NCBI GenBank assembly: GCA_030147845.1
Contig: JASBUN010000058.1
Location: forward strand, 307,585-371,584
Length of the DNA: 64,000 bases
Origin: Gammaproteobacteria bacterium
GTDB taxonomy: Bacteria > Pseudomonadota > Gammaproteobacteria > JASBUN01
Direction: 5' to 3'
The notes under the pieces are model-generated. The model worked only from the letters and a program-made list of their open reading frames with translations, was not told the origin of the DNA and did no database searches. The number at the start of each line of letters is the position of its first letter. The stretch's first letter is position 1. Position numbers and translations under genes: made by a program. Positions 27,981 through 60,658 of the stretch are shown here, piece by piece.

Positions 27981-27982
27981 GG

Positions 27983-28299: not shown

Positions 28300-28965
28300 T
28301 TATTGGGATTCGCTAAGTACGTTGCGGATGGTTTTCAGACTTTGGTTCTGACCAACGAGTTCTAGGAGGGATCTGATGATATCGGAGCGCGGATCTTCAG
28401 GTCCCGCTTTACTCCATGGTTCTAGAATTGCGTTTAGTTGTCTCACCAGCGGGCGGATATGCTTTGGAGGCGCGCCGACGTCGAACGTGGGCGTATTCGG
28501 GTGCTCAATCGGATTAACTTCTTTTGTTGCGTTAGTAAGTGCTGTTAGAAGAACTTCTAGATCCAACAGCCGAAGCTCCGGCTGTGAGCTGGAAAGTTCA
28601 AGATGTGTTTCGTAGACGTCAATCGCCCCCTTATTGTGCCTAATCCATAAAGCCGTTTTGTCTACCTTCTCCAGGCACTTGGCAAACGCGGGCACTAGGG
28701 CCTCTTGGGTGTATGGATTCGAAAGGTCCTCGCGCAGCAAGTCCAGCAACTTACTTGCGGCTTTCCTTGTGTCTTCAATCTGACCCTTCTTCGCTTTCTT
28801 ATGAAGTGGCCGGTAAATTCTATCACCCGCACACTGGTTCTCGAATTCGTAGAGTGCCTCGGCCAGCTGGTCTATCAGTTCATCAGGAAATTCGTAGTCC
28901 TCTGCGACTTCCGATTGCGCAACTAATTCGCGCAAATTCCGATAGACAGGATTAACGGCGCTCAT
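28300..28965 (-). CDS. Hypothetical protein co-transcribed with the integrase
   Basis: 221 aa; start overlaps the integrase stop by 4 nt. Confidence 0.65.
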   Translation of the reverse strand: MSAVNPVYRNLRELVAQSEVAEDYEFPDELIDQLAEALYEFENQCAGDRIYRPLHKKAKKGQIEDTRKAASKLLDLLREDLSNPYTQEALVPAFAKCLEKVDKTALWIRHNKGAIDVYETHLELSSSQPELRLLDLEVLLTALTNATKEVNPIEHPNTPTFDVGAPPKHIRPLVRQLNAILEPWSKAGPEDPRSDIIRSLLELVGQNQSLKTIRNVLSESQ

Positions 28966-30155: not shown

Positions 30156-30290
30156 AACGCGCCCCTCTGTACGAAATGCGTACGGAAATTATAACTGATG
30201 TACGGAAAAGACGCTATAGACTGGGTGGATATATTTATTGTTTACATACAGCCGCTTACTTAGACTCTGATAGACCGATTAAACAGTATT

Positions 30291-30343
30291 ACTGCCTTCA
30301 CACGGCAGGGGTCACTGGTTCAATCCCAGTACCGCCCACCAAT
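30291..30343 (+). repeat. Attachment-site direct repeat, right copy (partial tRNA-Val 3' end)
   Basis: 53/53 identity to 16727-16779; 5' half of the tRNA absent. Confidence 0.96.
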
Positions 30344-35337: not shown

Positions 35338-35355
35338 CAGTTCATAGCTCCGGTC

Positions 35356-38300: not shown

Positions 38301-38730
38301 ACACCTGGGGTAGCATGTGATGGGCAAAGCGTGCGGCGAGTGCCCATTTGTCGGCACCCTCCTCCTTCGCCAGCTCCTCGCATTCCTCCAGCGAAATGGC
38401 TACACCCATTTCTGGCTCGATGAGTAAATCGTTCTCGGCGAGAAAGCGGGCAAAGAGCATGCCGTGCCAATGCTCATAAGCGCACTCGTGCACCAGGTGA
38501 TCGATTCCGTGGCCGCCCGAGCGCGCATCGGGGCGATCGCCAAGCTGGCGGGCGTGCGCGCGCAATCGCCGACGCAGGGTACGCTGCTCCGAGCTCATGT
38601 GCCCGTAGGGCTCGTGATGGTGCACGGCAAGTGTCTCCAGCGCCGCACGAGCACCGGCTTCGGCAACATCACGGGCTTGAACGACGGTTCGCTCGAGTTG
38701 CTTTCTTAAGTTGGGGGACAGTGCCTGCAT
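35356..38730 (-). CDS. pglX: PglX/BrxX adenine-specific DNA methyltransferase
   Basis: CLDPCMGSGHFVVAMFERLVALR (SAM motif) and LVATNVPFLGG (NPPY-like). Confidence 0.96.
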   Translation of the reverse strand: MQALSPNLRKQLERTVVQARDVAEAGARAALETLAVHHHEPYGHMSSEQRTLRRRLRAHARQLGDRPDARSGGHGIDHLVHECAYEHWHGMLFARFLAENDLLIEPEMGVAISLEECEELAKEEGADKWALAARFAHHMLPQVFRPDHPVFEIQFAREHRLKLEELVERLPAEVFTATDSLGWVYQFWQAKKKGEVNAAANKIGADELPSVTQLFTEDYMVDFLLDNTLGAWRAGQVLAANPKLAENATSEDELRKAVALPGCPWIYLRFIKGKDETWTPAASTFDGWPKMAKELTCLDPCMGSGHFVVAMFERLVALRMAEEKLDEAAAVAAVINDNLFGLELDPRCTQIGAFNLALAAWRRVGHRLLPAMNLACSGLAPNTREADWLKIAGDDEKLQRGMERLYRLFEKAAVLGSLINPRAGEGDLLEAGFHELQPLLEKALAQETKDDTAHEMAVTAHGLARAAEILAGQFTLVATNVPFLGGSRQDSVLAGHLDRYYGEAMADLATAMIYRMRDMASNACSIAFVSPQTWMFLRNYKGFRLNILQQSALNCIAALGTRAFETITGEVVNVVLSVLTTTRPSNVTHFLAIDANAAADIQRKSSALSSGDFLQIAQVEQVANPDHVIVLSLGQNLPRLSEYATSWQGLVTGDTSRFVVRFWEIPGGSPAWEYFISSPSITTHYCGRDSLVRWEQASGALHNDSGAHNFPPTSVLGKKGVLLSQGKTARATLFTGEVFNDGSVPIIPKREGDLNALYSFLSQENYTAEVRKINQKLIMGCGYFIKVPFDLAHWQKVAAEKYPHGLPKPFSSDPTQWLFNGQPKGADQPLHVAVARLLGYQWPRQTGSSFPDCPALGPDGLEKHIDADGIACLPSVRGERPAHERLLHLLEAAWGDEWSNDTLSNLLAEAASNSLDDWLRTQFFEAHCKLFHHRPFIWHVWDGRKGDGFQALINYRKLTEGNGKGRRLLESLTYSYLGDWISRQQDGVKRGEGGAEDRLAAASELQKRLGAIIEGEPPFDLFVRWKPIEEQPIGWEPDINDGVRLNIRPFMAQDISGGKKGAGILRATPNIHWKKDRGKEPMREQAQFPWFWNNGKFTGERVNDVHLTTAEKHAAREATHDDSA

Positions 38731-38739
38731 GATTGATCT

Positions 38740-41700
38740 CTACGACACCACGATGGGGCCTTGCTTGAGCTGTTCGAGCAGCTCCTGCTCAGTCTTTTCA
38801 ACCCAGACCTTCACCTCGTCGGGCGTGCGGAGCGTGGCGCTACTTATTTTTACGTGGTGTGTCTTTGGCTCCACGAGCTTGTCGGCCTGGATGCGCGCGT
38901 CTGCGAAGAGCTGCGGGAGTGCAGCTGTGCGCGTCCTCCAGGCATCAAGAGAAATACGCTCCAGAGAATCGAGTACTTCTTGCTCGGAGCCGGTTGTGCC
39001 CTTAGTGACCTTGACGATATGCCATTGACCGAGGATGCGATCCTGTTCCTCTTGACCGATCTTCTGCCAGCTCTCGGCGCTTGAGAGGCGCTGCCACTCT
39101 TCGTCATAGATTTCGGCAAAGTGCTTCTCCGCTTCTGAAAGAGCGGCCCGGAGTGCATCCGCCAGCGCCTTGGTAAGATCGGGTACCGGGTCCGTCGTGT
39201 CGAGTAGGCTACGGTTCGCCACAATCGCATCGATTTGTGGCTTCACCTCCTTGGCAGCATCCAGACCATCGGCATGCTTGGACAACACCAGCAAACGCTT
39301 ATAGGCTGGCAAGCGCTTCTCTGCCATGTCGCGCGCCTTGCTCCACGCTTCGATGTTCTTGATGAGCTCGTCGTGGCGGTTGAGAATGCCAAGCAGTTGT
39401 TCGTTACCAGCAAGCGACTGCAAATCCAACAAGTGACTGGTAACCGGTCGTTCGGGCAGCGGGGCTTCGCCGCCGGCAGCGTTGGCTAACTCGGCAAGCT
39501 TTGTGAGGAACTGGCCGGCGGCCGCGGCCTCCTCGTTCGGCTTGCAGGCAATCCCGGCCGTCTGAAACAGCTTGCGCACCTTGAGGCGCTGTCGGGTATC
39601 AATGGTCGCACTCTCAACGCGGAAGTCTGTAATCGACACCTTTGCCTGATCCAGCTGACCCGGCTTGAGTGGTGCTCCGTTGGCGGTCGCGCGCAGATGC
39701 CCGGTTCCGAACAGGCTAATGAGCGCAGCATCAATTGCGTCTCGCGACCAACCATAGGGCGGGTCCGAAAAATGGGCGCGCACATCCTTACCCTTCTTCC
39801 CGGAACCGACAAATGAAAGCACGGCCGAGCAAACCGGGTGATCTTCGGTCTTGCCACTGTAGTCCATCACTTCAAGGGGATGTTCGGCGCCGTTTCGGGC
39901 ATGCTCGATCACTTTTGGCCAACGGTGGTCGTCTGCGTCCTTGAACTCGTAGAACAAGCGGTCCAACGATGCGTCGGCGGCTTCCCTCACTTTATCCAGC
40001 AGGGTCGCCTCCAACCGCTCGGCACCGCCACCCTGGAATACCTTTGCCCCATCGATGACTTCGGCTACCAGTGTTCGCAGGCCATTTGTCGCTTCGGTAA
40101 GACGTGTTTCCATGCCTTGGCGGGCCTCAATACCTTCGGGTGTCGAAGGCACGCCTTTGTATTCCAGCGTATCCTTGGCCCCGCTCTGGGAGGCGATGAC
40201 ACGCGCCAGCGCTTCGGCACGGGACTTCGGCACAAATATATGGATGACAGGGCTATCCGGCCCTGCCGCACGCGCATCGGAGATCACATTCTTCTCATCG
40301 GCGCCCCAGCCATCGCGTATCCACACCGGAATTTCGTGGCCCATGGATTGTGGCGGCTCGGCGCCAAAGTGCAGCGCGAGCTTCCTGGGCTCCTTACACT
40401 TGCCATGCATGAGCTTCACGGACCCAACCGCACCCTGTATGGCTGCGCCAAGGAGCTGGGCGCGTTTGCTGCTCATGCGGGTGGGATCGTTGACGAGCTT
40501 GGTTTGCCGATTGCGGAACTCGGCTTCCCACTCGCTGCTCTCCCGCGTCTGCAGGCTATATTCGTCGTCCAGCTTCATCAACGTGCCGGCGGCGACCAGT
40601 TCGTCCAAAAGCTTCGGAAGCTGACCACGCAATGCGGCACCATCCTTGGCCAAGTCCTCCACCAGCAAATCCGCCAGGGTTTCCGCCGTGGCGCGAACCC
40701 CGATGTCGACCCCTGCTTCTCGAGGAAGTTTTCGGATCAAGAACACCAGGGAACACAGCCGGGATTTGAGGCGCCCATCGGAAGTGCCATCGTCCTGCTC
40801 GAGAATGGTCTCATTGACCTCACGGAGCAGTACGCCGGATTGAAGCAGGTTGGCGGAGATCTCCTCAAACAGGAAATCCGCTGGCACCACTGTACCAACC
40901 GGTTCCTCAGCAGTGCGGCGTATAGCGTCGTAGACGATCCGCAGCTGCGTGCGGAGCTGACCCGCCGTGCCCGCGCGATCAACCGCGCGCAGTGTGTGCT
41001 CCCAGAAGCGTCGACGGACAGGTAGTAACGGGTAGTCTTCGACCAGGATGGACTTGTCTTCACTACGGGGGCCAATCTTGGTGCCAACCAAGTGACGGTC
41101 GAGTTCACCGGTGTTGGCATCCAGTGTGGATTTGACGTCGTTGACGCGGTCCGCGCGCTTCGCCAGCACAACCCGACGAGTGACGGTTTCGACGTCATTG
41201 TCCGAAAGTTCTACGTTGACCGTGAAGCGGCCCTGCAGGCGTTGCAGCGCCGGCGTGCCGGACAGGGCCGTCTGGCCAGTACCCATAAAGAGCAAACGGT
41301 CTCCGAATCGTTTGCTGCAGGCCTCTACCACTTCCTGCACGACGTAGGACCGGCTGGTGTCGTCGCCGATGTACTGTTGTACTTCGTCGAGAATGATAAC
41401 CGTACAAGGCATCTCGCCGCTGAACGCCAAGGTATCCTGCAAGGCGCTTGTGAACTCGTCCGTGGTGATGTCCTTAGGCTTCGGGAACTGGGCACGTATT
41501 GCGGCCTTAGCTTCCTTCTCGTTGGCGGCGAAGTTCGTGTCGGATGCGAGCAACGCTTTGGCGATAAGAGGGCTGACGTACAGGTCATTCAACTCTCGGC
41601 GAAAATCTCGCCCTTGCGCCTCAACCGCAGCGCAGACCGGGTCGTAGATATCGTTCTTTTTCAGCCAGAGGCAGAAACGTGCTTGAGGGAAACTCTCCGG

Positions 41701-42183
41701 AAGTTCCATGGACTTGAACACGATCCCAAGCAGCGCGAGTCGAACGCTGTCACCGGCACCGGCGCCGAGTGTACCTGCCGCAGCGTGAAGCCCATGTCCG
41801 CGTTTACCCAAGGTCGAAATTTCTTTCAGCAAGTCCTGCACATCGCTCGGTAGCCGCGCCAAACCGCGAGCGCTGGCACCATCTTCTGGGAACGTGTAGT
41901 CCGTCCACAGGAAGCGCAGCATCTTTGCCAGGTGAGACTTACCGCTTCCAAAGAACCCGCTGACCCATGCGGCTGGCTGTTCGGGCTGTCCCTGATTACT
42001 GACGTAAGAATCAAGTATGCGCACGAGGCCGCGCTGATACTCACCTTCACAGACGAAGTGCTCGAGCTCGAAACGCAGGGTGCGACGTTCATCATCGGTC
42101 AGGGCATCGGTCATAGTCGCGACGCCATTGTTCAGCAAGGTGATCTTGCTGGGGTCTCTCTGGTAGATCTCCCTGTTTTTCAT
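38740..42183 (-). CDS. brxC: BrxC, large P-loop ATPase
   Basis: AAWVSGFFGSGKSHLAKMLRFLW; start at MKNREIYQRDP overlaps the brxB stop. Confidence 0.96.
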   Translation of the reverse strand: MKNREIYQRDPSKITLLNNGVATMTDALTDDERRTLRFELEHFVCEGEYQRGLVRILDSYVSNQGQPEQPAAWVSGFFGSGKSHLAKMLRFLWTDYTFPEDGASARGLARLPSDVQDLLKEISTLGKRGHGLHAAAGTLGAGAGDSVRLALLGIVFKSMELPESFPQARFCLWLKKNDIYDPVCAAVEAQGRDFRRELNDLYVSPLIAKALLASDTNFAANEKEAKAAIRAQFPKPKDITTDEFTSALQDTLAFSGEMPCTVIILDEVQQYIGDDTSRSYVVQEVVEACSKRFGDRLLFMGTGQTALSGTPALQRLQGRFTVNVELSDNDVETVTRRVVLAKRADRVNDVKSTLDANTGELDRHLVGTKIGPRSEDKSILVEDYPLLPVRRRFWEHTLRAVDRAGTAGQLRTQLRIVYDAIRRTAEEPVGTVVPADFLFEEISANLLQSGVLLREVNETILEQDDGTSDGRLKSRLCSLVFLIRKLPREAGVDIGVRATAETLADLLVEDLAKDGAALRGQLPKLLDELVAAGTLMKLDDEYSLQTRESSEWEAEFRNRQTKLVNDPTRMSSKRAQLLGAAIQGAVGSVKLMHGKCKEPRKLALHFGAEPPQSMGHEIPVWIRDGWGADEKNVISDARAAGPDSPVIHIFVPKSRAEALARVIASQSGAKDTLEYKGVPSTPEGIEARQGMETRLTEATNGLRTLVAEVIDGAKVFQGGGAERLEATLLDKVREAADASLDRLFYEFKDADDHRWPKVIEHARNGAEHPLEVMDYSGKTEDHPVCSAVLSFVGSGKKGKDVRAHFSDPPYGWSRDAIDAALISLFGTGHLRATANGAPLKPGQLDQAKVSITDFRVESATIDTRQRLKVRKLFQTAGIACKPNEEAAAAGQFLTKLAELANAAGGEAPLPERPVTSHLLDLQSLAGNEQLLGILNRHDELIKNIEAWSKARDMAEKRLPAYKRLLVLSKHADGLDAAKEVKPQIDAIVANRSLLDTTDPVPDLTKALADALRAALSEAEKHFAEIYDEEWQRLSSAESWQKIGQEEQDRILGQWHIVKVTKGTTGSEQEVLDSLERISLDAWRTRTAALPQLFADARIQADKLVEPKTHHVKISSATLRTPDEVKVWVEKTEQELLEQLKQGPIVVS

Positions 42184-42749
42184 AATTCGTACACTCCTCG
42201 ATCTTCTTGTAAGGTGATCGGGACTGCGAGGTAGTTCCACCCATCCCGTGCGTCCAACAACCGATAGTTACTGTTCTCGTACTCCCCTGGGAAGAACACC
42301 GCCACGCGACCTCTAATATCTCGCTCGATCTCCTTCATCAACTCCGACACGCGCATGAATCCGAATAGTGAGGCGATGCCATAGATACCAACTACCGAGT
42401 TGTCATCCGCTTCCGGTGCCGTCAGTACCTCCTGTACCCGCCCGGCAACATGCTGCAGAAAGTCGTCTTCTAGCTTCAACTCGAGATCTTCCGGAGAGTC
42501 GAAGTAGCTATCCCGATATTCCGTATTCGCCATCCACTCCGAGAATGCCCGGGTCAGGTCACACTCGCTCCAACCATGTCCTGCCTCTGCGGTCGCCAGC
42601 GCGAATAGGTCTTTGCGCGCCCGCAGCCGTCGCTCGTCCGCCTTGTCGTAGACTATGAATATGGCGCGCTGCGCGCCCGCCAGATCCTTCTGCCACGGGA
42701 GCGCAATGTAGCTCTTGTAGCGCTCAGCCAGCCTGTCGATGCGTCCCAT
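42180..42749 (-). CDS. brxB: BrxB (DUF1788)
   Basis: RVSELMKEIERDIRGRVAVFFPGEYENSNYRLLDARDGWNYLAVPI. Confidence 0.95.
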   Translation of the reverse strand: MGRIDRLAERYKSYIALPWQKDLAGAQRAIFIVYDKADERRLRARKDLFALATAEAGHGWSECDLTRAFSEWMANTEYRDSYFDSPEDLELKLEDDFLQHVAGRVQEVLTAPEADDNSVVGIYGIASLFGFMRVSELMKEIERDIRGRVAVFFPGEYENSNYRLLDARDGWNYLAVPITLQEDRGVYEL

Positions 42750-43563
42750 GGATCAACTCCCGTTCCTTGTCGGTGAATATTGTTGGAAACGACACGTCAA
42801 TCATCGAACCGGACTGCTTGAGATCGAGCAGCCCGAGCCGCTTGGCATCGACGGCAACGTCTATGAGTTCGTCGGGGTCGGCATCCAACACAGCCGTCCA
42901 GGGTGTCTCGAACAGCAGACGACCGCGCCGGCCAACCGCAAATCCCATGAATAACGCGTATGTAGTTGCGGCCGGCGTTGCCTCAACGCGCTGCCTGATT
43001 TTTCGACTTCTTCCTTCCAGGTGACCGGACTGTGTCCATGATGACGAGGCGTTGCGCATCACCTTATCGAGCGTCGCTTCATTCAGGCGACCCTTGACTG
43101 CGTCGGTGAGTGCATCCTTCATCAATTGCCGCGCGAACTCGTGGCCAAACGGTGTACCGATAACGGCCCGTGCGGTTGCTCGTAGCAGCGGGTCGCGCGC
43201 AAGGGCGAGCACGAGCGCCAGCAGGGGGCGACTAGTTTCGTGCCGACTCCAGAAATCCCTCAGAACCCGGAAAAGAATCACCCGAGCATCGAGACCATAG
43301 AGTTCGGTCAGCCGCTGCAGCGATAGTTTGCGGGTTGCCACCGTCCTCTTGCCGAGACAGTTATCTTCCATGACGGCGCCCGCGTAGTCCTCGCGGGACG
43401 CCTCGCCCGGAACCGCATCCAGAAGACGCGATAACTCATCGAGCATGATCGTGCGACTCGTGTGGGTACCCCGATCGCCCGACCGGAACCCCCAGGCCAT
43501 GGCCTGGCTGCCGGTTAACCCAGCAATCCCTGCCTCGAAGTTCAGATCGGATATCGCACCCAT
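42724..43563 (-). CDS. brxA: BrxA (DUF1819)
   Basis: HTSRTIMLDELSRLLDAVP...NCLGKRTVATRKLSLQRLTELYGLD; first gene of the BREX operon. Confidence 0.93.
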   Translation of the reverse strand: MGAISDLNFEAGIAGLTGSQAMAWGFRSGDRGTHTSRTIMLDELSRLLDAVPGEASREDYAGAVMEDNCLGKRTVATRKLSLQRLTELYGLDARVILFRVLRDFWSRHETSRPLLALVLALARDPLLRATARAVIGTPFGHEFARQLMKDALTDAVKGRLNEATLDKVMRNASSSWTQSGHLEGRSRKIRQRVEATPAATTYALFMGFAVGRRGRLLFETPWTAVLDADPDELIDVAVDAKRLGLLDLKQSGSMIDVSFPTIFTDKERELIHGTHRQAG

Positions 43564-45225: not shown

Positions 45226-45912
45226 TCACGCTCGGCTAGCGCCATTTATCCACTCACAAATCTTCATGGCTGCATGCGTCGGGGTAAACGCCGAAAAGTC
45301 AGCCACGCGATCCACCGGAAATTCATTCTCAGAGTGCCCAATGCCGGTGACCACAAGTACACCATTGCTGGCCCTAAGGGCATGGAGGAGTTCACATGCG
45401 GATTTTGCCCGGTATGCCTCAAATTGTGGCGTGGTGACATCCCCTCCACCACGAACGATCGCCAAAATGTCCCCGCGACGAACACCCTCTCTAAGATCGT
45501 CTAGCGCACGGGTTAGTCCTTCTGCACCATGAGAACGGAGAACCTTTGCCTGCCGGAAGACGTGAATTCCGTTTTTCCTTAAAATCCGAATGAAATCTTT
45601 TGCACCGAGAGAAAAGCTCTCAGTTGAGACGAGGAAGATCCTGCCGGTCAGTGGGTTCACAAGCGCCGGGATCGAAACGGGCGATTGCGCCCGAATCGCT
45701 CGCTTTTCTTTCCAGTCCGCGATCTTCAACCCGAGGATTACAGCCGCAGCGAGCACCATTAACTGTACTGCGACCAACCATGGCGCAAATACGTTTATCA
45801 ACGTAAAAGCGGCCCAAAAGACTACAACGCGATAAAACGCGCGCCTTTTCAGGAATAGGCTACAGACTAGGGTTGATACGAAAACAACGAGTTGATACGC
45901 AACAATGCCCAT
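45226..45912 (-). CDS. Membrane-anchored exonuclease VII large-subunit-like protein
   Basis: Hydrophobic N-terminal spans, then IVRGGGDVTTPQFEAYRAKSACELLHALRASNGVLVVTGIGHSENEFPVDRVADFSAFTPTHAAM matching XseA motifs. Confidence 0.8.
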   Translation of the reverse strand: MGIVAYQLVVFVSTLVCSLFLKRRAFYRVVVFWAAFTLINVFAPWLVAVQLMVLAAAVILGLKIADWKEKRAIRAQSPVSIPALVNPLTGRIFLVSTESFSLGAKDFIRILRKNGIHVFRQAKVLRSHGAEGLTRALDDLREGVRRGDILAIVRGGGDVTTPQFEAYRAKSACELLHALRASNGVLVVTGIGHSENEFPVDRVADFSAFTPTHAAMKICEWINGASRA

Positions 45913-48324: not shown

Positions 48325-48528
48325 TCAGCGGCGCCGGTACTCGAACAGATCCGCCACCTGGCATCCGAAGTAGGCGCACAGCCGGTCCAACACCTCCAGT
48401 TCAATGCGCGAGGCGGTTTCCTGGTACAGACGGGTGATGGTGCCCCGATTGATGCCGGTGTCGCGGGCCACATCCGCGATCTTCAACTTGCGTTCACCCA
48501 TCAAGCGGGACAGATGGCACTTGATCAT
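48325..48528 (-). CDS. Xre-family transcriptional regulator
   Basis: LSRLMGERKLKIADVARDTGINRGTITRLYQETASRIELEVLDRLCAYFGCQVADLFEY. Confidence 0.9.
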   Translation of the reverse strand: MIKCHLSRLMGERKLKIADVARDTGINRGTITRLYQETASRIELEVLDRLCAYFGCQVADLFEYRRR

Positions 48529-48685
48529 GCACCTATTCTCCTGAAGGTCAGAATAATCCACAATAAATCAAAATGCCTTGCGGAAGATCTTTTCGTAGGC
48601 TAAAATGATCTCCTATAGAACATATCGCCCTCTTGCGGAGCGCATTGTTCTTTGACAAATCCGAATGTACCAAAGGAGACCGTGG

Positions 48686-48922
48686 ATGTCACAGACCTTT
48701 CTGACCACCGACGAACTGGCGGCCCGTATCAAATACGAGCCCCGCTATATCCGCGAAACACTGAACGACGCCGTGTTCATCGAGGGGATCCACTACATCC
48801 GCCCTTTCGGGGGGCGCAAGATTCTCTATCTGTGGGAGATCATCGAGGAGGAAATGCTGCGCCAAGCGCCGGCCCTTGCGCCCGCCATTCCCCTGGCGCG
48901 CGGGGGCGTCTGCCGTGGGTAG
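48686..48922 (+). CDS. Excisionase-like small DNA-binding protein
   Basis: MSQTFLTTDELAARIKYEPRYIRETLNDAVFIEGIHYIRPFGGRKILYLWEIIEE; overlaps the integrase start. Confidence 0.75.
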   Translation: MSQTFLTTDELAARIKYEPRYIRETLNDAVFIEGIHYIRPFGGRKILYLWEIIEEEMLRQAPALAPAIPLARGGVCRG

Positions 48923-50114
48923 GATCCGTGCCCGCCTCGGCACCGACATCCTGTTCTTTGACTTTCGCTACCGGGGGATTCGCTGCCGCGAGTACACGAC
49001 CCTGACCGATTCGCGCCCCAACCGACGCAAAATGGCGCGGGTGCTGGAACGGATTCTAGCGGAAATCACGCTAGGGACCTTCGAGTACCGCCGCTATTTC
49101 CCCAACAGCCCCCTGGCCGATCGCTTTGAGACCATGGACCGCAACCGCCCACTCCACGGCCACATCCCCACCTTTGGACTGTTCGCCGAACAATGGTTTC
49201 AGGAAAAAGAGGTGGAGTGGAAGCGCTCCTACCGTGCGACCATCCGGTCGACTCTGGACCGCTACCTGATTCCGCATTTTCGAGATACCGTGGTGAACCG
49301 CATCACCAAAGCGGACGTGCTGCACCTTCGCGCCGTTCTCGCCAAGGCACCGGGGCAAAACCGTCGCACCCTGTCAGCCGATCGCATCAACCACATCATG
49401 ACGCCATTGCGTCAGATCGTCGATGAGGCCGCAAGCCGCTTCCGCTTCACCAGCCCCTGGCAAGGCATCAAACCCCTCAGGGTCCCACGAACGGAGGTGG
49501 ATCCGTTTACGTTGACCGAGATGACCACCTTTCTAGACCACGTCCGCCCCGACTTCCAGAACTACTATACGGTGCGCTTTCTGACCGGACTTCGCACCGG
49601 CGAAATCGATGGGCTCAAGTGGCGGTACGTCGATTTCGACAAGCGGCTAATCGTCGTTCAGGAGACGATCGTCGACGGCGAACAGGAAATCCCAAAGGTA
49701 CACGCCTCTTACCGCGAGGTGCAGATGTGTGAACCAGTGCGCGCGGCGCTTCAGCGCCAAACGGAACAAACGGCCAAGATCAGCGAGTATGTCTTCTGCA
49801 TCGGCGCAGGGGCGCCGCTCGCCCATCGCAATGTCACCAAGCGCATCTGGTACCCCACGCTCGAGCGCCTCGGACTGAAGAAGCGTCGGCCGTACCAGAC
49901 GCGCCATACGGCAGCCACGTTGTGGCTCGCCGCCGGCGAGAATCCCGAGTGGATCGCCCGACAGCTCGGTCATAGCAACACCCGCATGCTCTTTGAGCGC
50001 TATTCCCGATTTGTTCCCAACCTTACCCGCCGGGACGGCTCCGCCTTCGAGCGCCTCGTCTCGCCATACCTCGGTACAACCGCGCCGGAGCGCACCAATG
50101 GAGGCGTCCGATGA
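48915..50114 (+). CDS. Tyrosine-recombinase integrase
   Basis: FLTGLRTGEIDGLKWRYVD, YQTRHTAATLWLAAGENPEWIARQLGHSNTRMLFERYSRF; GTG start. Confidence 0.93.
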   Translation: MGRIRARLGTDILFFDFRYRGIRCREYTTLTDSRPNRRKMARVLERILAEITLGTFEYRRYFPNSPLADRFETMDRNRPLHGHIPTFGLFAEQWFQEKEVEWKRSYRATIRSTLDRYLIPHFRDTVVNRITKADVLHLRAVLAKAPGQNRRTLSADRINHIMTPLRQIVDEAASRFRFTSPWQGIKPLRVPRTEVDPFTLTEMTTFLDHVRPDFQNYYTVRFLTGLRTGEIDGLKWRYVDFDKRLIVVQETIVDGEQEIPKVHASYREVQMCEPVRAALQRQTEQTAKISEYVFCIGAGAPLAHRNVTKRIWYPTLERLGLKKRRPYQTRHTAATLWLAAGENPEWIARQLGHSNTRMLFERYSRFVPNLTRRDGSAFERLVSPYLGTTAPERTNGGVR

Positions 50115-50175: not shown

Positions 50176-52503
50176 TTACTCATCCCTCGTCAGCGCCGGG
50201 CGGGCAATCACCAAGGCCTCGGGCAACTCGTACATCTGGGCCAACGCCTCGATTCCGCGGTCACGCAACTTCCGGTACACGCTGCTTTTGCGGTACCCCA
50301 GCAGCGGACCCAGATGCTCGATGCGAAGCCGCGGGACGCGCCGGCGCATCCAGTAGTGCAGCAGCAGATCGCAGCAGTGTACATAGTGCAGCAACGTCAT
50401 GCGCGGCGACGCATGACCCATCAGCATACTCGTCTGATAGAGCAACTTGCGCGTGGCCGACCGACCATCCAGCAGCGTTTCGAAGCGCGCGGCCTTCACG
50501 TCTCCGATTTCCTTCGGCAGGTCCGGTAACCGGTTCGCTTCCATTCCCAACAGCAACCACGTCGGAAACGAATGCCGCAGCGAATGGTACTTGATACTCG
50601 GATCCCCGGTCACCGCCCTCAGCACCGCCAGAATAATATCGAACGTGCGCTCCCGGCCCACCAATTCGTGGTCACACCCGACATCACAGAATAGCAGCGC
50701 ATCGCGATCCTCGGTTTCTGCGCAGCGCTGCGCATGCCACCGACGCAAGTAGGCCAGCTCGTCGGCAGACAGCAGATCATGCAGCGGAAACCACCGCCGG
50801 CTGCTCGCACTCTTGACCTCCCCGAGTGCGGTATCCACCATGCGCAGAAACGCTTGTGTCTTCAGGAAGACGAGGTCCTTCAATCGTAGCCGTCTTACCT
50901 CCTGGCGACGTCCCGCAAGGCGATAGCCCAACCCGGTGATCAAATACCGCATGTACCCATAACGATCGCGTAGGTCCCGCCGGACCCACACCCTGTTGAG
51001 CGTTTGGTCATAGTGATCCGGGCTTAGCACATTCGCGTTCACGCTGTGACGCGGTGACACAAAACCATCCAACTCTTCCCAGTCAACGGCCGGGACGTGC
51101 TCATTGGTTCTCATCAAGTAGGCGTGGAGGCTCTTTAAGGTTTTTCCCGCTTCGCATTGCCCCGACAGGGTAACGTGCAGATCCAGCACAGATTCGTAGA
51201 GGTCTTCGAGTTCGGAAACTTTCAGCTGCAGGATATCCCGTCCACGCGCACACGCCACCAGCTCCCGCCCCACCACAAAACTGTTCTGGATTGATTGACC
51301 TTTGTTGCGCAGCCGACCAGGCACCGTGCCGCACCGCAAACCCACGTACCACCTCGCCAGACAAACGGCGGTGGGCGACAGGCTGCTCACGTTTTCATCC
51401 ACGAGTGCCTCGAGCCCGTCAATCGGCACCTTTCGCACCGCTTGCTCCACCCGTTCGAGTGCCTCGAACTCGGCACAATAGCGAGCGCCGTTCGACCCTT
51501 CCGGCCGGCGATATGGCCGGACTCCGTCGAAGCGATCGCCTATCGTATGCCCTTCCCTGCTTCCATTTTCGCCCAGCCCTACCCCCCCACCCGTTTCGCC
51601 GGTGAGAAGCCGCCGCAATGCCGCGTCTGACATGGAATAGGAGGGATTGCGTCCCGCGGCGTAATCGACAAGATAGGGTGGCACGACCATGTCCATCTGC
51701 GTCTTGCTCCACTTGCATAACTGCGTAAGCGACTTCGGCAACGATCTCCCCAAGGCTCCAAACTTTTGTAACAATACCCGAAGGTGTTCCCAGAGCTTGC
51801 GCTCGCTCCATCCGCCATCCGGCATGTGCACCCCTTTACCGCGCGCCGTTTTGCCGGAAAGGACACGTTGATCCACCCGCAGTCGTCGTAGCAGCTGCTG
51901 CGAAATCGCGTCCGGAAATACGCGCTTGATAGTGCCCGGAACGGCCTTCGTCCTGTCGGCCGGGATATTCAGCCACACTAGGTTATCGCATCGATGAACC
52001 TCAACGATCTCCGCCCCGGAAAGGTTACACAGCAACGCCTTTTCAATCACACCCCCGTACCATATGAGGCTCAATATCCATTGCGCCACTCGCTCCTGCC
52101 AGTTGAGCTCATCAAGTGCCGCGACGCTCTGCCAAAACACCGCTTCGAGTTCGCGCGCCTGATGCCGACAAGAGGCAGTCGCCGGCGTGTGCCGCGATGG
52201 CTCATGACGGATCAGCTGGTACGCGGGCAATGGAGCCGACTTCCAGTTATGCTGCGACACCGCCTCATCCACGATCCGCCCAAATGTATGGCGCAAAAAT
52301 AGAATCTCTCCGAAGGTCCCGACTTCGCGGATCGCCGCCATGATCGTCTCCATTGCGGACCGCGTGATCTCGCCGCCGGTCCGCCCCTCCCACAACTCCG
52401 GCAACACCTCCCTGATTGCCTTCCTGAGCACCTCTCTCGAGAATTTCCGCCGCGACGATTCCTCGTCTCGCAAGCACTGCCGCACCCAGCTCTCCTGTCC
52501 CAT
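50176..52503 (-). CDS. Large tyrosine-recombinase protein, trio member 1
   Basis: C-terminal AGRRQEVRRLRLKDL, KYHSLRHSFPTWL, MGHASPRMTLLHYVH (R...HxxR...H...Y). Confidence 0.85.
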   Translation of the reverse strand: MGQESWVRQCLRDEESSRRKFSREVLRKAIREVLPELWEGRTGGEITRSAMETIMAAIREVGTFGEILFLRHTFGRIVDEAVSQHNWKSAPLPAYQLIRHEPSRHTPATASCRHQARELEAVFWQSVAALDELNWQERVAQWILSLIWYGGVIEKALLCNLSGAEIVEVHRCDNLVWLNIPADRTKAVPGTIKRVFPDAISQQLLRRLRVDQRVLSGKTARGKGVHMPDGGWSERKLWEHLRVLLQKFGALGRSLPKSLTQLCKWSKTQMDMVVPPYLVDYAAGRNPSYSMSDAALRRLLTGETGGGVGLGENGSREGHTIGDRFDGVRPYRRPEGSNGARYCAEFEALERVEQAVRKVPIDGLEALVDENVSSLSPTAVCLARWYVGLRCGTVPGRLRNKGQSIQNSFVVGRELVACARGRDILQLKVSELEDLYESVLDLHVTLSGQCEAGKTLKSLHAYLMRTNEHVPAVDWEELDGFVSPRHSVNANVLSPDHYDQTLNRVWVRRDLRDRYGYMRYLITGLGYRLAGRRQEVRRLRLKDLVFLKTQAFLRMVDTALGEVKSASSRRWFPLHDLLSADELAYLRRWHAQRCAETEDRDALLFCDVGCDHELVGRERTFDIILAVLRAVTGDPSIKYHSLRHSFPTWLLLGMEANRLPDLPKEIGDVKAARFETLLDGRSATRKLLYQTSMLMGHASPRMTLLHYVHCCDLLLHYWMRRRVPRLRIEHLGPLLGYRKSSVYRKLRDRGIEALAQMYELPEALVIARPALTRDE

Positions 52504-52504
52504 G

Positions 52505-55012
52505 TCAGAGTCCCTTTTCCAGACGCCAGCGATCGGCACCGAGAATGCATTCGAGGCGCGGCCGAACGGCTGCCATCACCTCGTCGACCGTTAGGGTCGA
52601 GTACCGCCCGCCGGGCGCCTCACCGTGCTGCCAGTGCCCCAAGTACGCATCGATGACTTCGCCATCACATCCTCGATTCCGCAATCGGAATCGCAGGTAG
52701 TGGCGGTTCGTGTTCAACGGCAAATGAAAATGCGAGCTTACCTGTTCCCTCAATGTCTTCGGCCGCAGCGGAATCACACCGAACTCGTCATTCAGAAAAA
52801 AGAACAGCCCATAATGGTCGCTGACGTGGCGGCGTAATTCCATGGCCCGCCACGACGATGGCTGCTGCGCGCTTGGATCGGAGAGTTCTCCGTACGCCGC
52901 GCCGGGATGCAGCGCCATTTTCTCCAAAACCCGCTGCCGGTGCTCCATATAAGCACGCAGTTGCTCCACCACAAGCGGTGGAAGCCAGCCAATGCGTGTG
53001 TTGTAAAAATCGCCCCCGTCCTTGTCAGATAGGAGTGCCACATTGCATACCTCATCCAAGCTCGTCGAAAAAAAGTATTTTCGCGCCACCGACCGACTAC
53101 CCGTTACGAAGTCCAGCATGGATACGACGTATGCGGTATAGACATTGTGTAACTTCGTCCAATTGCGAGCGCTGCGTGCGCGGTTTAACTCGGTACGTAA
53201 TCCACGCACAAGCTTACGCACGGTCCGGGGGCGTGGTGTCAAGCGCGCGCCGACATATTCCCCGTGGCGCACTTGCGGCAATTTTATCCGCCACACTCCG
53301 CTAAACGTCGCACCAAACCCAAACTCCTCTGCGATTTTATCCACCATCGTATTGTGTGCTCGCAGATGTAGCCAAGCCAGATACCGGCTTGGTCGCGTGG
53401 TATAGTGCAGTCGCGTTCGAACAAAGCCAAACGACTGGCCGGTGAGCATTATTGCTTCCACTAGATCATGAGATTGCCCATATATCTCTTGGAACATGCG
53501 CTTTCGGATTGCGGCATCCGTTAGCGCCGAGTCGGTCGCGGAACGTATGATTTTCCTGAGCGATCTTTCGTACGTGTCGGCCTTATCTGGGAATGCCGGG
53601 TATCCGGAGCGGGCGCCGCTATCTCTATTTTTGTGGAGTCGCTCCATCGCGTCTTGGATGATGCGGGGGCATCCCAGGATCGCATACTCGCCCACTGCAA
53701 TTGCCTCCTCCTTCTGACGCGGATCCAATCGGGCTCGATACTCCGGCCCAGTGACTCGCAGTACGAATACATTCTCCTTCCGGGCGTATCCCACTTCGGT
53801 TCCTGTAGGGAGCACTCGTGGCACTGACCCGAATATTCGAAGCGTGGACAATGTCGCGGGACTCATACCGAGCACCAGCATGCACCCCATCATCAGGTAG
53901 CCGTCCAGAAGAGCGCCATCCAAGTCGTCGAGATGGTGCGCCACTGCCTTAAATACCGTGCCTATCTCGAGCAGGCTCGCACTCGACCAGTCCATCGCGA
54001 GCAGCTGCGCACGCATCGCAACCGCATCGAACATGCCACGCATCCGGATCGCTTCCTTCACCGGGTCAATATCGTAATAATCGTCCGCCCTCGGCAAGAG
54101 CTCCAGGAGGCTACTCGGTTCGACGTAGTCATCAATGGTTATATCAATATCGCCGACCCAGCGCGCCGCTGGATCAGGATGCGCCAACCGGTAAGAGCGG
54201 ACGCCGGAATAATCCGGATCGGTATCGTCCTCGACGGCGCCGACATAGATCAGGACTCGCTGGCTCGGCGGTATGCTACGCATCGGTCCACCCCCCTTAC
54301 CGCCGACACCGCCTTGGTGATTCCGTGGCGAAAACGAAGCCTGGCCAAGCCCGATGCGGATCGCGCGGCAGATCTCCGCGAGATGATCTTGCCCGACCAG
54401 TGGCAAGCGTTCGCCGTCTGCGAGCAGTCGGCGCTCGATCACGTCCAAGTAATCGGGAACGGTCAGCGGGTCTCTTGGCATTTGTTCCATCAGAGGCGCG
54501 AACTTGATATATCCAAGTTCGCGAACACATCGTCCCAACTGGTAGAGATAGTCTGTACTAGTTCGTCGCCTCAGTAGCGGCCATATTCGGAACAGCGCTG
54601 CCTTTATTTGAAGGTAGTGCGCATCGAACCGGGCATCCTTTATGCCGTTCCACAAAAACCCATAAAGGGGATTGCTTCTTAGGCTTCCGCGCACACTATT
54701 TTTAGTTCTACGCCGACTTTTCGGTTTTCGACACCGCGCAATTGCTTCACAAATCGCTGGCCATTTCGAGTGCACTACTTGATTGATTTCACGCCATACC
54801 GCAAGCGCGGCTTGATCGCCCCGCTCGCCAACGTCTTCCAGCACGTCGATGATGCGGCCCATCTCCGCTGCTACCGCATCGAGGCCGACCAGATCGACCG
54901 GAACGTCGATTCGATCCAGATAAAAACGAACAGCCCCGAGCCTGTCTTTCACCGTCACGCTGCCCAAACCGCTTGCCAAAATCACTTCGACGCCCTCACG
55001 TATGCTAGTCAT
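52505..55012 (-). CDS. Large tyrosine-recombinase protein, trio member 2
   Basis: C-terminal VTGSRSVARKYFF, NTNRHYLRFRLRNRG, YLGHWQHGEAPGGRYSTL. Confidence 0.8.
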   Translation of the reverse strand: MTSIREGVEVILASGLGSVTVKDRLGAVRFYLDRIDVPVDLVGLDAVAAEMGRIIDVLEDVGERGDQAALAVWREINQVVHSKWPAICEAIARCRKPKSRRRTKNSVRGSLRSNPLYGFLWNGIKDARFDAHYLQIKAALFRIWPLLRRRTSTDYLYQLGRCVRELGYIKFAPLMEQMPRDPLTVPDYLDVIERRLLADGERLPLVGQDHLAEICRAIRIGLGQASFSPRNHQGGVGGKGGGPMRSIPPSQRVLIYVGAVEDDTDPDYSGVRSYRLAHPDPAARWVGDIDITIDDYVEPSSLLELLPRADDYYDIDPVKEAIRMRGMFDAVAMRAQLLAMDWSSASLLEIGTVFKAVAHHLDDLDGALLDGYLMMGCMLVLGMSPATLSTLRIFGSVPRVLPTGTEVGYARKENVFVLRVTGPEYRARLDPRQKEEAIAVGEYAILGCPRIIQDAMERLHKNRDSGARSGYPAFPDKADTYERSLRKIIRSATDSALTDAAIRKRMFQEIYGQSHDLVEAIMLTGQSFGFVRTRLHYTTRPSRYLAWLHLRAHNTMVDKIAEEFGFGATFSGVWRIKLPQVRHGEYVGARLTPRPRTVRKLVRGLRTELNRARSARNWTKLHNVYTAYVVSMLDFVTGSRSVARKYFFSTSLDEVCNVALLSDKDGGDFYNTRIGWLPPLVVEQLRAYMEHRQRVLEKMALHPGAAYGELSDPSAQQPSSWRAMELRRHVSDHYGLFFFLNDEFGVIPLRPKTLREQVSSHFHLPLNTNRHYLRFRLRNRGCDGEVIDAYLGHWQHGEAPGGRYSTLTVDEVMAAVRPRLECILGADRWRLEKGL

Positions 55013-56075
55013 GGTCTTGTTCTTCCTGGCATGTTTCATCCAATGACAACTCGATCTGCCATTTTTGAAGCGATTCTCGCTTTTCTGTCGCTGACCGGCT
55101 GCTGGAGTGGGCGCCGCGCGTATAAAACGCGTGTTGGCGACTATAGCGGATCAATTGAGCGGCACCCGATCGGGACAGCGGCTGACCAAAGGCCCAGCGA
55201 TGGTGTTCGATAGCGCCGTTCCTGAGACGATCGCCCAGCACCACCCCCTCGCACGGCGCTAGACTGTGCAGGCACGACAGCACTCCAACCTCCAGCGAGG
55301 CCAATGCTTGCAGGACCTTTGGGCTTTTTGTCGGGATCACCTGAACCGTAACGTCGTCCTCTTTGCGTAGTACTGCTCGGACCGCCTCTAGTATTCGGCA
55401 GTTCGCAATACAGATATAACGCCCCTTCACCGAAGGTGCGAGTACTGGCGGGTGGAGCTCGCTAAGGCGACGGACTGCACGCACCGATAGAACCTCCAGC
55501 GAGGCCATGCGATAGCGTGCGCCGGGGCCGCCCGTGCAGGTCGCAATATGTTGGAGTTTTACATGGCGATGTGTTGGCTGACGCGCGGAGAGACTCGCGA
55601 GGTTTTGGCAGGCGTTAGCGCACACTTTTTTTTGGTTACTCGGGCATAACAATCTCGCAGTAGCTATCGTGCCACCGTCGCTCTGCCCGGCTGCAATCGA
55701 GAACAATAACGGCAACAGATGTTCTTCGAGATATCGGACTTGTTGTATCCATTTTTCGCTCGGCTTTCCTACCAGTACACTCACGCGATGATTCGGATCG
55801 AACATTAAGCGCGCCATCTGCAGCGTGCGTAGATTGGCAACCGCACACAGTTCATTGGGCCGCGATCGACTCACAATGACCGGCTCCAACCTGATCAGTG
55901 CATCGCAAAATCGACGGCAGCGGGTTGCATGGTCGCCGAGCAAATAGGGCAGATTCATTTGACTCACACCCGTGGCTTTTATCACCGGGTGCACCCCTAC
56001 AATTGATCGGATTGTTGTTCGCGTTCGTTCGAACTGGGTATCGCCGATGGATACCTGGTTGTTGGCGTAGTTCAT
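55005..56075 (-). CDS. Trio member 3, hypothetical protein with internal duplication
   Basis: 8-nt overlap with the trio-2 start; two similar ~70-aa segments. Confidence 0.7.
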   Translation of the reverse strand: MNYANNQVSIGDTQFERTRTTIRSIVGVHPVIKATGVSQMNLPYLLGDHATRCRRFCDALIRLEPVIVSRSRPNELCAVANLRTLQMARLMFDPNHRVSVLVGKPSEKWIQQVRYLEEHLLPLLFSIAAGQSDGGTIATARLLCPSNQKKVCANACQNLASLSARQPTHRHVKLQHIATCTGGPGARYRMASLEVLSVRAVRRLSELHPPVLAPSVKGRYICIANCRILEAVRAVLRKEDDVTVQVIPTKSPKVLQALASLEVGVLSCLHSLAPCEGVVLGDRLRNGAIEHHRWAFGQPLSRSGAAQLIRYSRQHAFYTRGAHSSSRSATEKRESLQKWQIELSLDETCQEEQDHD

Positions 56076-57350: not shown

Positions 57351-58610
57351 TTAAGAAAGAGAAAGCGCTGCTTTCAAGTCCTCATGCTCAAAGGCTGATG
57401 CCACGCGATCAATCTCGGCTCGCGTAAGACTTCCTTGCGCGGCCTCTTCGCGCCAGGTTGTCACGGCCTTCCCGACCTCGGCGGCGATCGCGTGCGCCCT
57501 GGCTTCATCCAGTTCAAAATATCCCACCACACTCATCGCCAGATCCAGAGAGGCCGAACCATCATCGAGATCGATGGCCGTTGTCAGAACGCGTGGTTTG
57601 ATATCCGTGGGTACTGGATTAAGATCATAGGCTGGGCTCAACCGCCAACCGTCTGGGCCGGTATAGAGGAAGGCATGATTACGCAAGTGGTCATCCGTGT
57701 TGGAAATCAAAATATTGAAGACGATACGTCGCCACAGTTCATGCATATCCTGTTTCGGATTGGCGCCATAGCGGCGCAGAGCATCGACAAATTCCAGGTA
57801 ACTGCGTGACTCGTTGTCGCTGGCGCCGAGCATACTCATGGCCGAAAGAAACGGGATGCGCTGACCTTGCACCCTATCGAACCGGCGCAGCAACAGCACC
57901 GGCTTGTTCAGTACATGTTCGATTCGCCAGTCGGGCACAGGGATACCAGCCTTTGCTGCAAGACGGAGCGCAACCGCTTCCCACAGAATCGCATTGATCT
58001 CATCATCCTTGTGTGGAAACTTGGCGATGGCAAGATGCCCGTCCCGGTCCCGAACAGACGCCTTGGGACGCGCACCACCCAATGATGAACCGGGAGCCAG
58101 CAGCAGGCGAAGGTCCTCGTCGCTATCCGTATCACCAACGACATGTTCCGCCGCCGACAGCAATTGTGGCAGATCGATCAGGGGTGGTATGCGGGCGGCT
58201 TCATGTTCGGCAAGAAACGAGCCGCCCTCCTGCCTGGCAAAGCGCAGAGCGCCTTGTCGTGCCTCATCATCAACCATGAGCAGGTAGTCAATTTCCATCA
58301 AGGTGCGCGGCGTCTCGCCCGCGCGCTCTGCCCGTCGCCGTTCTGCCCGACGCATCAAAACCCGCCCCCAGCGATCGGGGGCAGAATCACCGATGGTACC
58401 GAACAGGGGTTTACCTGTAGGTGTGTGGAAGGGACCCGGGCCCAGCGTCAGAGCCGGTTCCAGGGAGAAACGGTCGGCATACTCAAGCCAACCCGGATCA
58501 TATTCGAACGTCGCGCTTTCCCTACCCTTACGCACGCGCGCCCATAATCGCCCGGCCAGATGCGGCGTACCGGCAATATCCACATAGACGAACACTTCTG
58601 CTTCCATCAC
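57351..58610 (-). CDS. hipA: HipA-family serine/threonine kinase toxin
   Basis: FGTIGDSAPDRWGRVLMRR, PGSSLGGARPKASV, ISNTDDHLRNHAFLYTG, LSPAYDLNPVP. Confidence 0.96.
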   Translation of the reverse strand: MMEAEVFVYVDIAGTPHLAGRLWARVRKGRESATFEYDPGWLEYADRFSLEPALTLGPGPFHTPTGKPLFGTIGDSAPDRWGRVLMRRAERRRAERAGETPRTLMEIDYLLMVDDEARQGALRFARQEGGSFLAEHEAARIPPLIDLPQLLSAAEHVVGDTDSDEDLRLLLAPGSSLGGARPKASVRDRDGHLAIAKFPHKDDEINAILWEAVALRLAAKAGIPVPDWRIEHVLNKPVLLLRRFDRVQGQRIPFLSAMSMLGASDNESRSYLEFVDALRRYGANPKQDMHELWRRIVFNILISNTDDHLRNHAFLYTGPDGWRLSPAYDLNPVPTDIKPRVLTTAIDLDDGSASLDLAMSVVGYFELDEARAHAIAAEVGKAVTTWREEAAQGSLTRAEIDRVASAFEHEDLKAALSLS

Positions 58611-58978
58611 GCTTTACTCTTCTGCCCCGACTGGAGCGACTTGCGCCCGGATTTATGCTGGCGCGGCTTGCGGATACGTTGCGGCAAACGCGCATCGATG
58701 AGTTCGAGACCCACCGTATCCGTCTTGACATCAGCGAGTTCACCCAACCGCTCAGCTATGCCCAACACAAAGAGCACATTAGCGTAATTACCCAGCGCCA
58801 CGCCCGGATCGCCCTTTTCCACCTTGTTTAAGGTTGTCCGGCTGATAGAGGCCCGTTCAGCCATGACAGCGGTCGAGATACGCCGTCTGAGCCGGGCATC
58901 TCGGATATCCTGTCCAAGCTTATGCATCGCTCGCCTGACCGGAATCGGCACCATCAAGTCTAGCTGGGTTTTTCGCAT
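58607..58978 (-). CDS. hipB: HipB-like Xre antitoxin
   Basis: LGQDIRDARLRRRISTAVMAERASISRTTLNKVEKGDPGVALGNYANVLFVLGI; overlaps hipA. Confidence 0.93.
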   Translation of the reverse strand: MRKTQLDLMVPIPVRRAMHKLGQDIRDARLRRRISTAVMAERASISRTTLNKVEKGDPGVALGNYANVLFVLGIAERLGELADVKTDTVGLELIDARLPQRIRKPRQHKSGRKSLQSGQKSKA

Positions 58979-59577
58979 GTTTCGTCCATTTTTATGGTCA
59001 CTATCTATAATAGTGTATACAATAATGGACGTAATAACAATTGGATCCGATAGGAACGAGCACAGAACACGCCCACTTGGCCACTGGTCACAGGGTAACC
59101 ACCCACTGTCGGCATCCGACACCATTCATCCTGTTTTTTACCGCACGTAATATTTTATAAGAGATAGCGGGTGGCACAGGCTTATTTATCACGTGCGGTA
59201 AATATGGCTGCCCATTGACCGCTTAAGGTGCCAATTCTTACCGTACGATATCTTTCCTGAGGGCGCGACCATGGCGCAAGATAACATCGTGTACGGCACG
59301 GTCCAGACCGACGAGGAGTTCGGCCGTGTCAGGGGAGCGCGCCCTTATTTACCGATGTATACCGCCGTTGGTGGTCGGCGGGGGGGCGAACTGAACCATC
59401 ATCCGTGTCACGCCCCCGACCTGCCGTTGGCTTTACCGTAGGTCGTCGTAGCCCGCGCCTGGATCAGCCACCGAGGCCTATTTTTTTCGACGGCGGCCGC
59501 TCGCTCCCAATCCCCTAAAACCTTGCCTGTGCAATTTCTATGCGCTATTATTTCTACAGCAATACACGGAGGCTGCC

Positions 59578-59952
59578 ATGCGCGCACACGCAATCTTGAA
59601 CCCGGACCGCCAGCGGGTACTGACGGAAGCCACGGTGAGGGCTGCGGACATCCTGTGTTTGAGTGGCGAATCCTTGGCGAAAGTGATCGGGCTTAGCGCC
59701 GCGTCGGTGAGCCGGATGCGGACGGGGGCTTATCAGCTGGAGCCCGACAGCAAACCCTGGGAACTCAGCACCCTGTTGGTACGACTGTATCGGGGGCTGG
59801 ACGCCATCACCGCAGGGGATGAATCTTCGCTGCGCGCATGGATGCGGTCGGAGAATTTGGCTCTGCACGGGGTTCCGGCCGAGTTGATTGTCACGGTCTC
59901 CGGCCTGAGCGATACGCTGGCGTATGTGGACGCCCACCGCGCTCGCGTCTGA
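59578..59952 (+). CDS. Xre/ParS-type antitoxin
   Basis: LTEATVRAADILCLSGESLAKVIGLSAASVSRMRTGAYQLEPDSKPWELSTLLVRLYRGLDAI. Confidence 0.9.
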   Translation: MRAHAILNPDRQRVLTEATVRAADILCLSGESLAKVIGLSAASVSRMRTGAYQLEPDSKPWELSTLLVRLYRGLDAITAGDESSLRAWMRSENLALHGVPAELIVTVSGLSDTLAYVDAHRARV

Positions 59953-60658
59953 AGCGCGCGCCGCCGGCGGCGTCGTGTGGCGCGTGGTCGAACACCAGTA
60001 CACGGCCTCGACGCGCAAGATCGTGGCCCGGCAGTCCGACCAAGACATCCTGGAAGACCTCCTGGAGGAATCCAAGCCCCGGGTACCGGCGCCGTGCCGC
60101 CACCTCGATTACCTGCTGTACTCGCCGTTTCGGTACCGGGCGACGCACCCCGGCTCCCGGTTCCGCCTGCCCGCTCCCGGAGACGGCGTATTCTACGCCG
60201 CTGAGCATCGGGTCACCGCCCAGGCTGAATTTACGTACTGGCGGCTGCGCTTCTTCGCGGCATCCCCGGATACGCCGCTACCGCGCCAGGAGGAGCGGCT
60301 GACCGCGTTTTCCGCCGCCTACCGCACCGAGCGCGCGATCGATCTCACCACCTCCGCTTTTTCATCCGACCGGCAAGCGTGGACCGACCCCTGCGATTAC
60401 AGCGCCACGCAGGCCTTGGCGCTACAGGCGCGGCGTGCCGGCGTGGAGATGATCCGATACGAGTCGGTGCGCGACCCGAACCGATGGGCCAACATCGCAC
60501 TCCTTGGTTGTGCATCGTTCGACCGCCCCACCCCGGTGAGCCAGCAAACGTGGTACCTGTATCTCGGGCAAGAAGAGGCGAGCTGGCGACGGGCGCAGGG
60601 GACGCGGGCCGAGCGGGCACGCTTCGATGTCGGGGCATTCGATCTGTGCCCGTCTTAA
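59924..60658 (+). CDS. RES-domain toxin
   Basis: WRVVEHQYTASTRKIV, RYRATHPGSRFRLPAPGDGVFYAAEH; overlaps the antitoxin. Confidence 0.9.
   Translation: MWTPTALASEARAAGGVVWRVVEHQYTASTRKIVARQSDQDILEDLLEESKPRVPAPCRHLDYLLYSPFRYRATHPGSRFRLPAPGDGVFYAAEHRVTAQAEFTYWRLRFFAASPDTPLPRQEERLTAFSAAYRTERAIDLTTSAFSSDRQAWTDPCDYSATQALALQARRAGVEMIRYESVRDPNRWANIALLGCASFDRPTPVSQQTWYLYLGQEEASWRRAQGTRAERARFDVGAFDLCPS

Follow-up and report, generated by a model that had tools for sequence, protein, structure and literature searches.

A three-gene set of a catalytic tyrosine recombinase, a recombinase-fold partner without the catalytic tyrosine, and a predicted ParB-fold protein, associated with tRNA-integrated islands

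Are three tightly packed genes, two of them encoding very large recombinase-like proteins, the mobility machinery of a mobile island, and if so, do they belong to a kind already described? To our knowledge, few multi-protein elements built on tyrosine recombinases are known, and how they work is poorly understood. The genes, which we call X, Z, and Y, lie in a 64,000-nucleotide stretch of a gammaproteobacterial contig (the window) and are transcribed on its minus strand in that order:

55005–56075, minus strand: X, 356 aa, the first gene of the operon, with a predicted tandem-duplicated ParB/Srx-fold domain.
52505–55015, minus strand: Z, 836 aa, a protein of tyrosine-recombinase fold without the catalytic tyrosine.
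50176–52503, minus strand: Y, 775 aa, a tyrosine recombinase with the full R-K-HxxR-H-Y pentad (Pfam PF00589).

These coordinates are start-adjusted, and residue numbers given below refer to the unadjusted open reading frames. The original prediction described three long open reading frames on one strand (approximately 776, 836, and 357 aa) with 1-nt spacing and an 8-nt overlap, and this layout is confirmed: all three are open on the minus strand at the adjusted lengths listed, the stop codon of X overlaps the start of Z by 8 nt (ATGACTAG), and a single C separates the TGA stop of Z from the ATG of Y. The reading frames are not a product of chance, because the family recurs widely. Among loci found with Z, that gene immediately precedes Y, in the same orientation, in every locus with enough sequence, and an independent set collected via the neighboring integrase has Z leading into Y on the same strand at 30 of 30 loci, with the two genes mostly overlapping. 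Z and Y are fused into a single open reading frame in L038 (1862 aa), L121, L137, and L157 (range 1763–1897 aa), which argues that the two proteins act together. In one genus (g181), the order X-Z-Y-int-xis is found in all loci uncut by contig ends. The concern that the three genes might not co-occur elsewhere is thus answered: they do. Some other loci carry split Z or Y genes.

We found that only one of the two large proteins is a complete tyrosine recombinase. Y alone is recognized by Pfam and NCBIfam, weakly, as Phage_integrase, and Z, like X, had no match in the Pfam or NCBIfam libraries used. Judged by its alignment, Y has the catalytic set of the tyrosine recombinase superfamily (R-K-HxxR-H-Y): R544, K576, R655, H709, and Y719 are present in 23 of 23 sequences, and the histidine of the HxxR box (H652) in 22 of 23. 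Z has R649, K673, N776, R779, H802, and S814 invariant in all 23 of its sequences, so that its box reads NxxR (N776, R779). The Y813 column of Z is variable (Phe in 11, Tyr in 6, His in 3, and Ser, Val, and Leu in 1 each), and the next column, S814, is Ser throughout; an earlier set of 20 Z sequences agrees in having no conserved tyrosine column. When an AlphaFold2 model of the window Z (pLDDT 76) was compared with the PDB by Foldseek, the top 26 matches were all tyrosine recombinases, with a best E value of 5e-3; the E values are modest because most of Z lies outside the shared core. From the pattern of the catalytic columns together with the fold match, we conclude that Z is a recombinase-fold protein that has no catalytic tyrosine and keeps the rest of the pocket. 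Thus, of the “two giant tyrosine recombinases” originally proposed, both with a full R/HxxR/H/Y signature at the C-terminal end, Y bears out the description, and Z is better described as a tyrosine-less partner.

X is of a different kind. The window copy is internally duplicated (N-terminal versus C-terminal part, 28.6% identity over 70 aa, E 1e-3), and its C-terminal part matches X of another locus, where X has a single domain (E 6e-5); elsewhere, X is mostly 150 to 260 aa long. No Pfam family matched X, and in a profile search of chain sequences Noc and ParB-like proteins ranked first, below significance. In the AlphaFold2 model, the C-terminal half is confidently predicted, and the top PDB matches by Foldseek are all ParB, Noc, PadC, KorB, or sulfiredoxin (best E 9e-4, prob 1.0). 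On the strength of this model, X is predicted to consist of two tandem copies of a domain with the ParB/sulfiredoxin fold.

Facing the 3′ end of Y is a second group of genes, which the original prediction had missed as a conserved companion of the trio (HTH-xis-int cassette, 48325–50114):

48915–50114, plus strand: int, a tyrosine integrase of about 399 aa with an Arm-DNA-bind_2 domain (Pfam), from a family that targets tRNA genes, in convergent orientation to Y.
48686–48922, plus strand: xis-like gene, 78 aa, overlapping int, with homologues 52 to 66% identical at the same position in 7 loci.
48325–48528, minus strand: XRE-type HTH regulator, divergent from the int cassette, matching by tblastn (E 3e-13) the HTH gene beside xis in L039.

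Homologues of int (47–55% identity) lie 3′ of Y in 7 of the first 20 other loci, in which Z and Y are only about 20 to 28% identical to those of the window. Genome contigs scanned with an alignment of int yielded 80 loci, distributed over Marinobacter, Halomonas, Idiomarina, Thiocapsa, Geobacter, Rhodocyclaceae, and other taxa. Together with 4 viral contigs, these gave 84 int-family loci, of which 33 (about 40%) had Z within reach, compared with 0 of 76 control integrases (about 30% identity); 49 of the 84 had no detected trio. Of 30 loci, 26 have int on the 3′ side of Y, 24 of them in convergent orientation, and several trio genomes with no int alongside the trio have a member of the int family elsewhere on the same contig. 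We considered whether int (48915–50114) is an unrelated element inserted into Y and rejected this, since int and xis are found 3′ of Y in many lineages. An apparent boundary at position 16851 of L039 proved to be merely the end of the conserved part of the small HTH gene. Because the islands usually also carry a tRNA-targeting integrase and xis, the trio is unlikely to be their sole mobility machinery. In several islands, int is followed by a gene of about 285 to 310 aa that has HD-type motifs and what looks like an OB-like N terminus (L003 10004–10870, L011 6117–6962, and L031 2196–3134), which is absent in the window.

The window copy of Y is unusually short. Sixty-eight residues follow its catalytic tyrosine, compared with 233 to 515 in 21 of 22 relatives, and it does without the C-terminal extension of about 250 to 300 aa that most relatives have; no remnant of this missing part was found anywhere in the window. 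Either a local deletion, possibly one between Y and int, or a natural short form could account for this, and the module in this genome may be impaired as a result. It is possible, though we would not favor it, that the window trio is a decaying and inactive remnant, Y having lost its 3′ end at the junction with int, a reading compatible with any of the functions considered below. Pointing toward decay are the length of Y, the interval of just 62 bp between Y and int, the absence from the window of a gene that often follows int elsewhere, and the split genes at other loci; against it, the three window genes are open, their catalytic residues are intact, and Y of L133 is equally short (63 residues past the catalytic tyrosine) in an otherwise complete locus.

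We examined where the trio stands with respect to the attachment (att) sites of the islands. In about 10 of the int-only loci scanned, a tRNA gene lies 0.6 to 1.1 kb from int on the xis side, as integrases that target tRNA genes would lead one to expect, and no tRNA gene stands at that position in the scanned int loci that bear the trio. In four unrelated loci of different lineages (L003, L031, L033, and L040), a tRNA 3′ half is found 185 to 242 bp upstream of X, always in one orientation and never as part of an intact tRNA. With the T-arm plus CCA pattern, about 0.7 such upstream matches would be expected in 42 upstream intervals, against the four observed, from a background that includes real tRNAs. 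These tRNA halves suggest that X starts close to the attachment site of the island in the four loci. The upstream intervals scanned contained no tRNA-like att site near X in the window itself or in most loci, and direct repeats that would link the X-upstream region to a second site, whether within the window or in its genome, did not rise above chance. Empty-site mapping in genus g181 gave no clean empty site, as rearrangements confound the comparison. Near-perfect inverted repeats with arms of 10 to 16 bp, which exceed simple shuffles, stand about 170 to 260 bp upstream of X in L039, L066, L032, L074, L076, and L035, at the distance where other loci have the tRNA half; each is present in a single copy per genome, and they are not conserved across groups.

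The window supplies a candidate island around the trio, with the following features:

30291–30343, plus strand: tRNA-Val 3′-half repeat of 53 bp, the right end of a 13.6-kb neighboring element and candidate left att site of the BREX/trio island.
30947–43563, minus strand: complete BREX type I operon (brxL, pglZ, pglX, brxC, brxB, brxA; PADLOC), cargo of the island, neighboring its int cassette.
57351–59125, minus strand: HipA-like toxin with an HTH partner (Pfam) on the X side, probably cargo or a stabilizing toxin–antitoxin pair.

The right end of the window is the end of its own contig, and a tRNA-Val 3′ half without the 5′ part lies at the very start of contig C67 of G000 (positions 88–140; L249), where it is a candidate right island end. 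The simplest reading is that a second and larger island, at least 34 kb in length, stands in tandem at tRNA-Val and contains BREX, HTH-xis-int, the trio, and the toxin–antitoxin genes, with a presumed join to C67. The neighboring 13.6-kb element at tRNA-Val (16703–30343), bounded by the 53-bp tRNA 3′ repeat, has its own tyrosine recombinase (28962–30155), terminase-like (19339–20889), and IstB-like ATPase genes. Beside HipAB, a RES-domain protein (59924–60658, plus strand) with further small open reading frames in the region 59554–60658 is probably a second toxin–antitoxin pair, and 45226–45912 encodes a hydrophobic protein of 228 aa with a weak match to the exonuclease VII large subunit.

To gauge the distribution of the family, we searched with Z only and obtained matches in 12 of 399 genomes of the phylum (counting the window's own) and in 3 of 184 further genomes of the same class; the resulting figure of about 3% of sampled Pseudomonadota genomes is a lower bound. 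Viral contigs and phage records contained no trio relatives of the window Z or Y. Plasmids of Vibrio, Acinetobacter, and Ketogulonicigenium carry the trio without int, so the trio need not act with int. Y had tblastn matches in 188 Acinetobacter plasmid records, among them L007, the only one of these opened, in which a divergent trio of 154, 798, and 1066 aa adjoins umuDC-like genes with no int detected beside it.

What, then, does the trio do? We propose that X-Z-Y is a heteromeric site-specific recombination module near the att-site end of tRNA-integrated islands, a role in which we have moderate confidence because int alone could account for integration at tRNA genes. The gene set with its fixed order and fusions, the catalytic residues, the predicted folds, the association with int and xis, and the proximity of putative tRNA-derived att sites are features read from sequence; we infer that Y, Z, and X form one complex recombining island ends (or cassettes or multimers), with a division of labor with int. 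The original prediction of “mobility machinery of a mobile island” therefore survives in kind, in that the islands are tRNA-integrated and, in four loci, a tRNA 3′ half stands some 200 bp away from the start of X, with the provisos that int and xis are usually present too and that a role of the trio in mobility is our deduction. In the proposed mechanism, Y would be the cutting and joining subunit, and the sole one that cuts. Z keeps the DNA-phosphate pocket but not the nucleophile, and its probable part is to occupy the other half-site or to define the architecture in a way that makes the exchange asymmetric. X probably contacts the DNA that separates its start from the att site and loads or regulates Y and Z. 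Many islands would thus have two recombination modules, the trio and, working beside it, an HTH-xis-int cassette with tRNA 3′ ends as its targets. A fuller version of this proposal, which we regard as tentative and on balance unlikely, is that these islands form a new class of mobile island, defined by a tRNA integrase with xis and an obligate three-protein recombinase in which Y provides the only nucleophile, Z a tyrosine-less pocket with an invariant serine, and the ParB-fold X loads or licenses the complex at the att site.

Two other functions have to be weighed against a recombination module acting at island ends. The trio could be a resolution or stability system, in which a recombinase complex resolves multimers of the excised island or plasmid and, together with the ParB-like X and the neighboring HipAB, prevents its loss from the cell, with int alone integrating and excising the island. 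The ParB fold of X and the int-less trios on Vibrio, Acinetobacter, and Ketogulonicigenium plasmids are what such a system would lead one to expect, and the inverted repeats about 170 to 260 bp upstream of X could be its resolution sites. We nevertheless consider it unlikely, because resolution does not usually involve giant multi-protein recombinases, the trio lies near island ends and not in a replication region, and the inverted repeats are not conserved between groups. Less probable again is that the trio does not serve mobility and is carried by the islands as cargo, such as an anti-phage or conflict module built from recombinase-fold proteins. The islands do bear defense cargo, here BREX, and 49 of 84 int islands lack the trio, but PADLOC gives no match for the trio, its conserved and mostly convergent site beside int and near att is unexpected for exchangeable cargo, and the catalytic pentad of Y is intact.

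If X-Z-Y is a recombination module as we propose, it would add a family to the multi-protein systems; at least about 3% of the Pseudomonadota genomes sampled have it, and two of its proteins match nothing in the Pfam and NCBIfam libraries used. Z, in keeping every other active-site residue, would offer a natural test of why such systems retain a tyrosine-less partner, and X would bring the ParB fold into site-specific recombination. The trio would also provide a sequence handle for finding tRNA-integrated islands with BREX and other defense cargo.

Least probable of all is that the trio is a divergent branch of a described multi-recombinase element (GMT, GInt, SE, Tn554, or RIT): the plan of a catalytic recombinase, a tyrosine-less recombinase-fold protein, and a small helper is shared (PMC10214605, PMC5385486), but GMT is excluded with positive controls, and gene number and order are unlike those of GInt (ginABCD), SE (intA-tfp-intB-srap), and RIT. 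For GMT, our statements rest on the NCBIfam models and on control loci, which were real GMT loci found via a published VPA1270 primer (PMC1464126). The control proteins matched the models for GmtY, GmtZ, and GmtX (NF040693, NF047926, and NF040692) with E values of 8e-167, 0, and 3e-75, in the order GmtY-GmtZ-GmtX, and X, Z, and Y had no match to any of the three at E ≤ 10. Profile comparisons of the window trio with GMT gave Prob values of 0.07 to 5.8%; Z and GmtZ are unrelated, as are X and GmtX, and Y and GmtY share only the generic recombinase box I. The suggestion that the trio might be related to GMT is thus rejected, both by sequence and by gene order. What the two have in common is a set of three genes (a catalytic tyrosine recombinase, a very large partner, and a small protein) and islands with defense cargo; GMT differs in its order Y-Z-X (485, 889, and 225 aa in control locus L050) from the X-Z-Y found here. 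In G575, of the same genus as G417, the GMT copies on contigs C1, C2, and C4 (L048, L049, and L051) are situated some 4 kb away from contig ends, and gmtZ is split in some of them.

Among known trios, Tn554 has the catalytic recombinases TnpA and TnpB with a small TnpC, and RIT elements have three consecutive recombinases, RitA, RitB, and RitC. Set against this description of Tn554, our trio has only one catalytic recombinase, and it had no NCBIfam match. It differs from RIT in that Z has no catalytic tyrosine and X has a predicted ParB fold. SE (strand-biased circularizing integrative elements) have the genes intA-tfp-intB-srap, with two catalytic recombinases flanking Tfp, and resemble the trio in producing a tyrosine-less recombinase-fold protein, Tfp, alongside the catalytic recombinases and one auxiliary protein (PMC10214605). 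SE differ in having imperfect inverted-repeat ends of 13 to 19 bp and no int/xis cassette, and the trio is set apart from them by gene content and order. In SE, recombination of attL with attR yields no empty site. GInt has four genes, ginABCD, for two catalytic recombinases, GinC, and the HLH protein GinD, all of which are needed (PMC5385486). It too places its operon at an island end near the att site, and GinC is recombinase-like with part of the signature gone (PMC5385486); our operon has three genes, one catalytic recombinase, the putative ParB-fold X, and often an additional int and xis, and is again set apart by gene content. Tfp and GinC would be analogues of the part we assign to Z (PMC10214605, PMC5385486). 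Finally, the window cassette (48325–50114) is of the kind found in tRNA-targeting islands with an Arm-DNA-binding integrase, xis, and HTH gene, whose int-only relatives adjoin tRNA genes, and the islands described here differ from these by the extra X-Z-Y module, which in most cases lies 3′ of int. The trio is therefore, as far as we can tell, a multi-protein recombination module not described before that is analogous to, and not a member of, GMT, GInt, SE, and RIT, from the last three of which it is distinguished by gene content.
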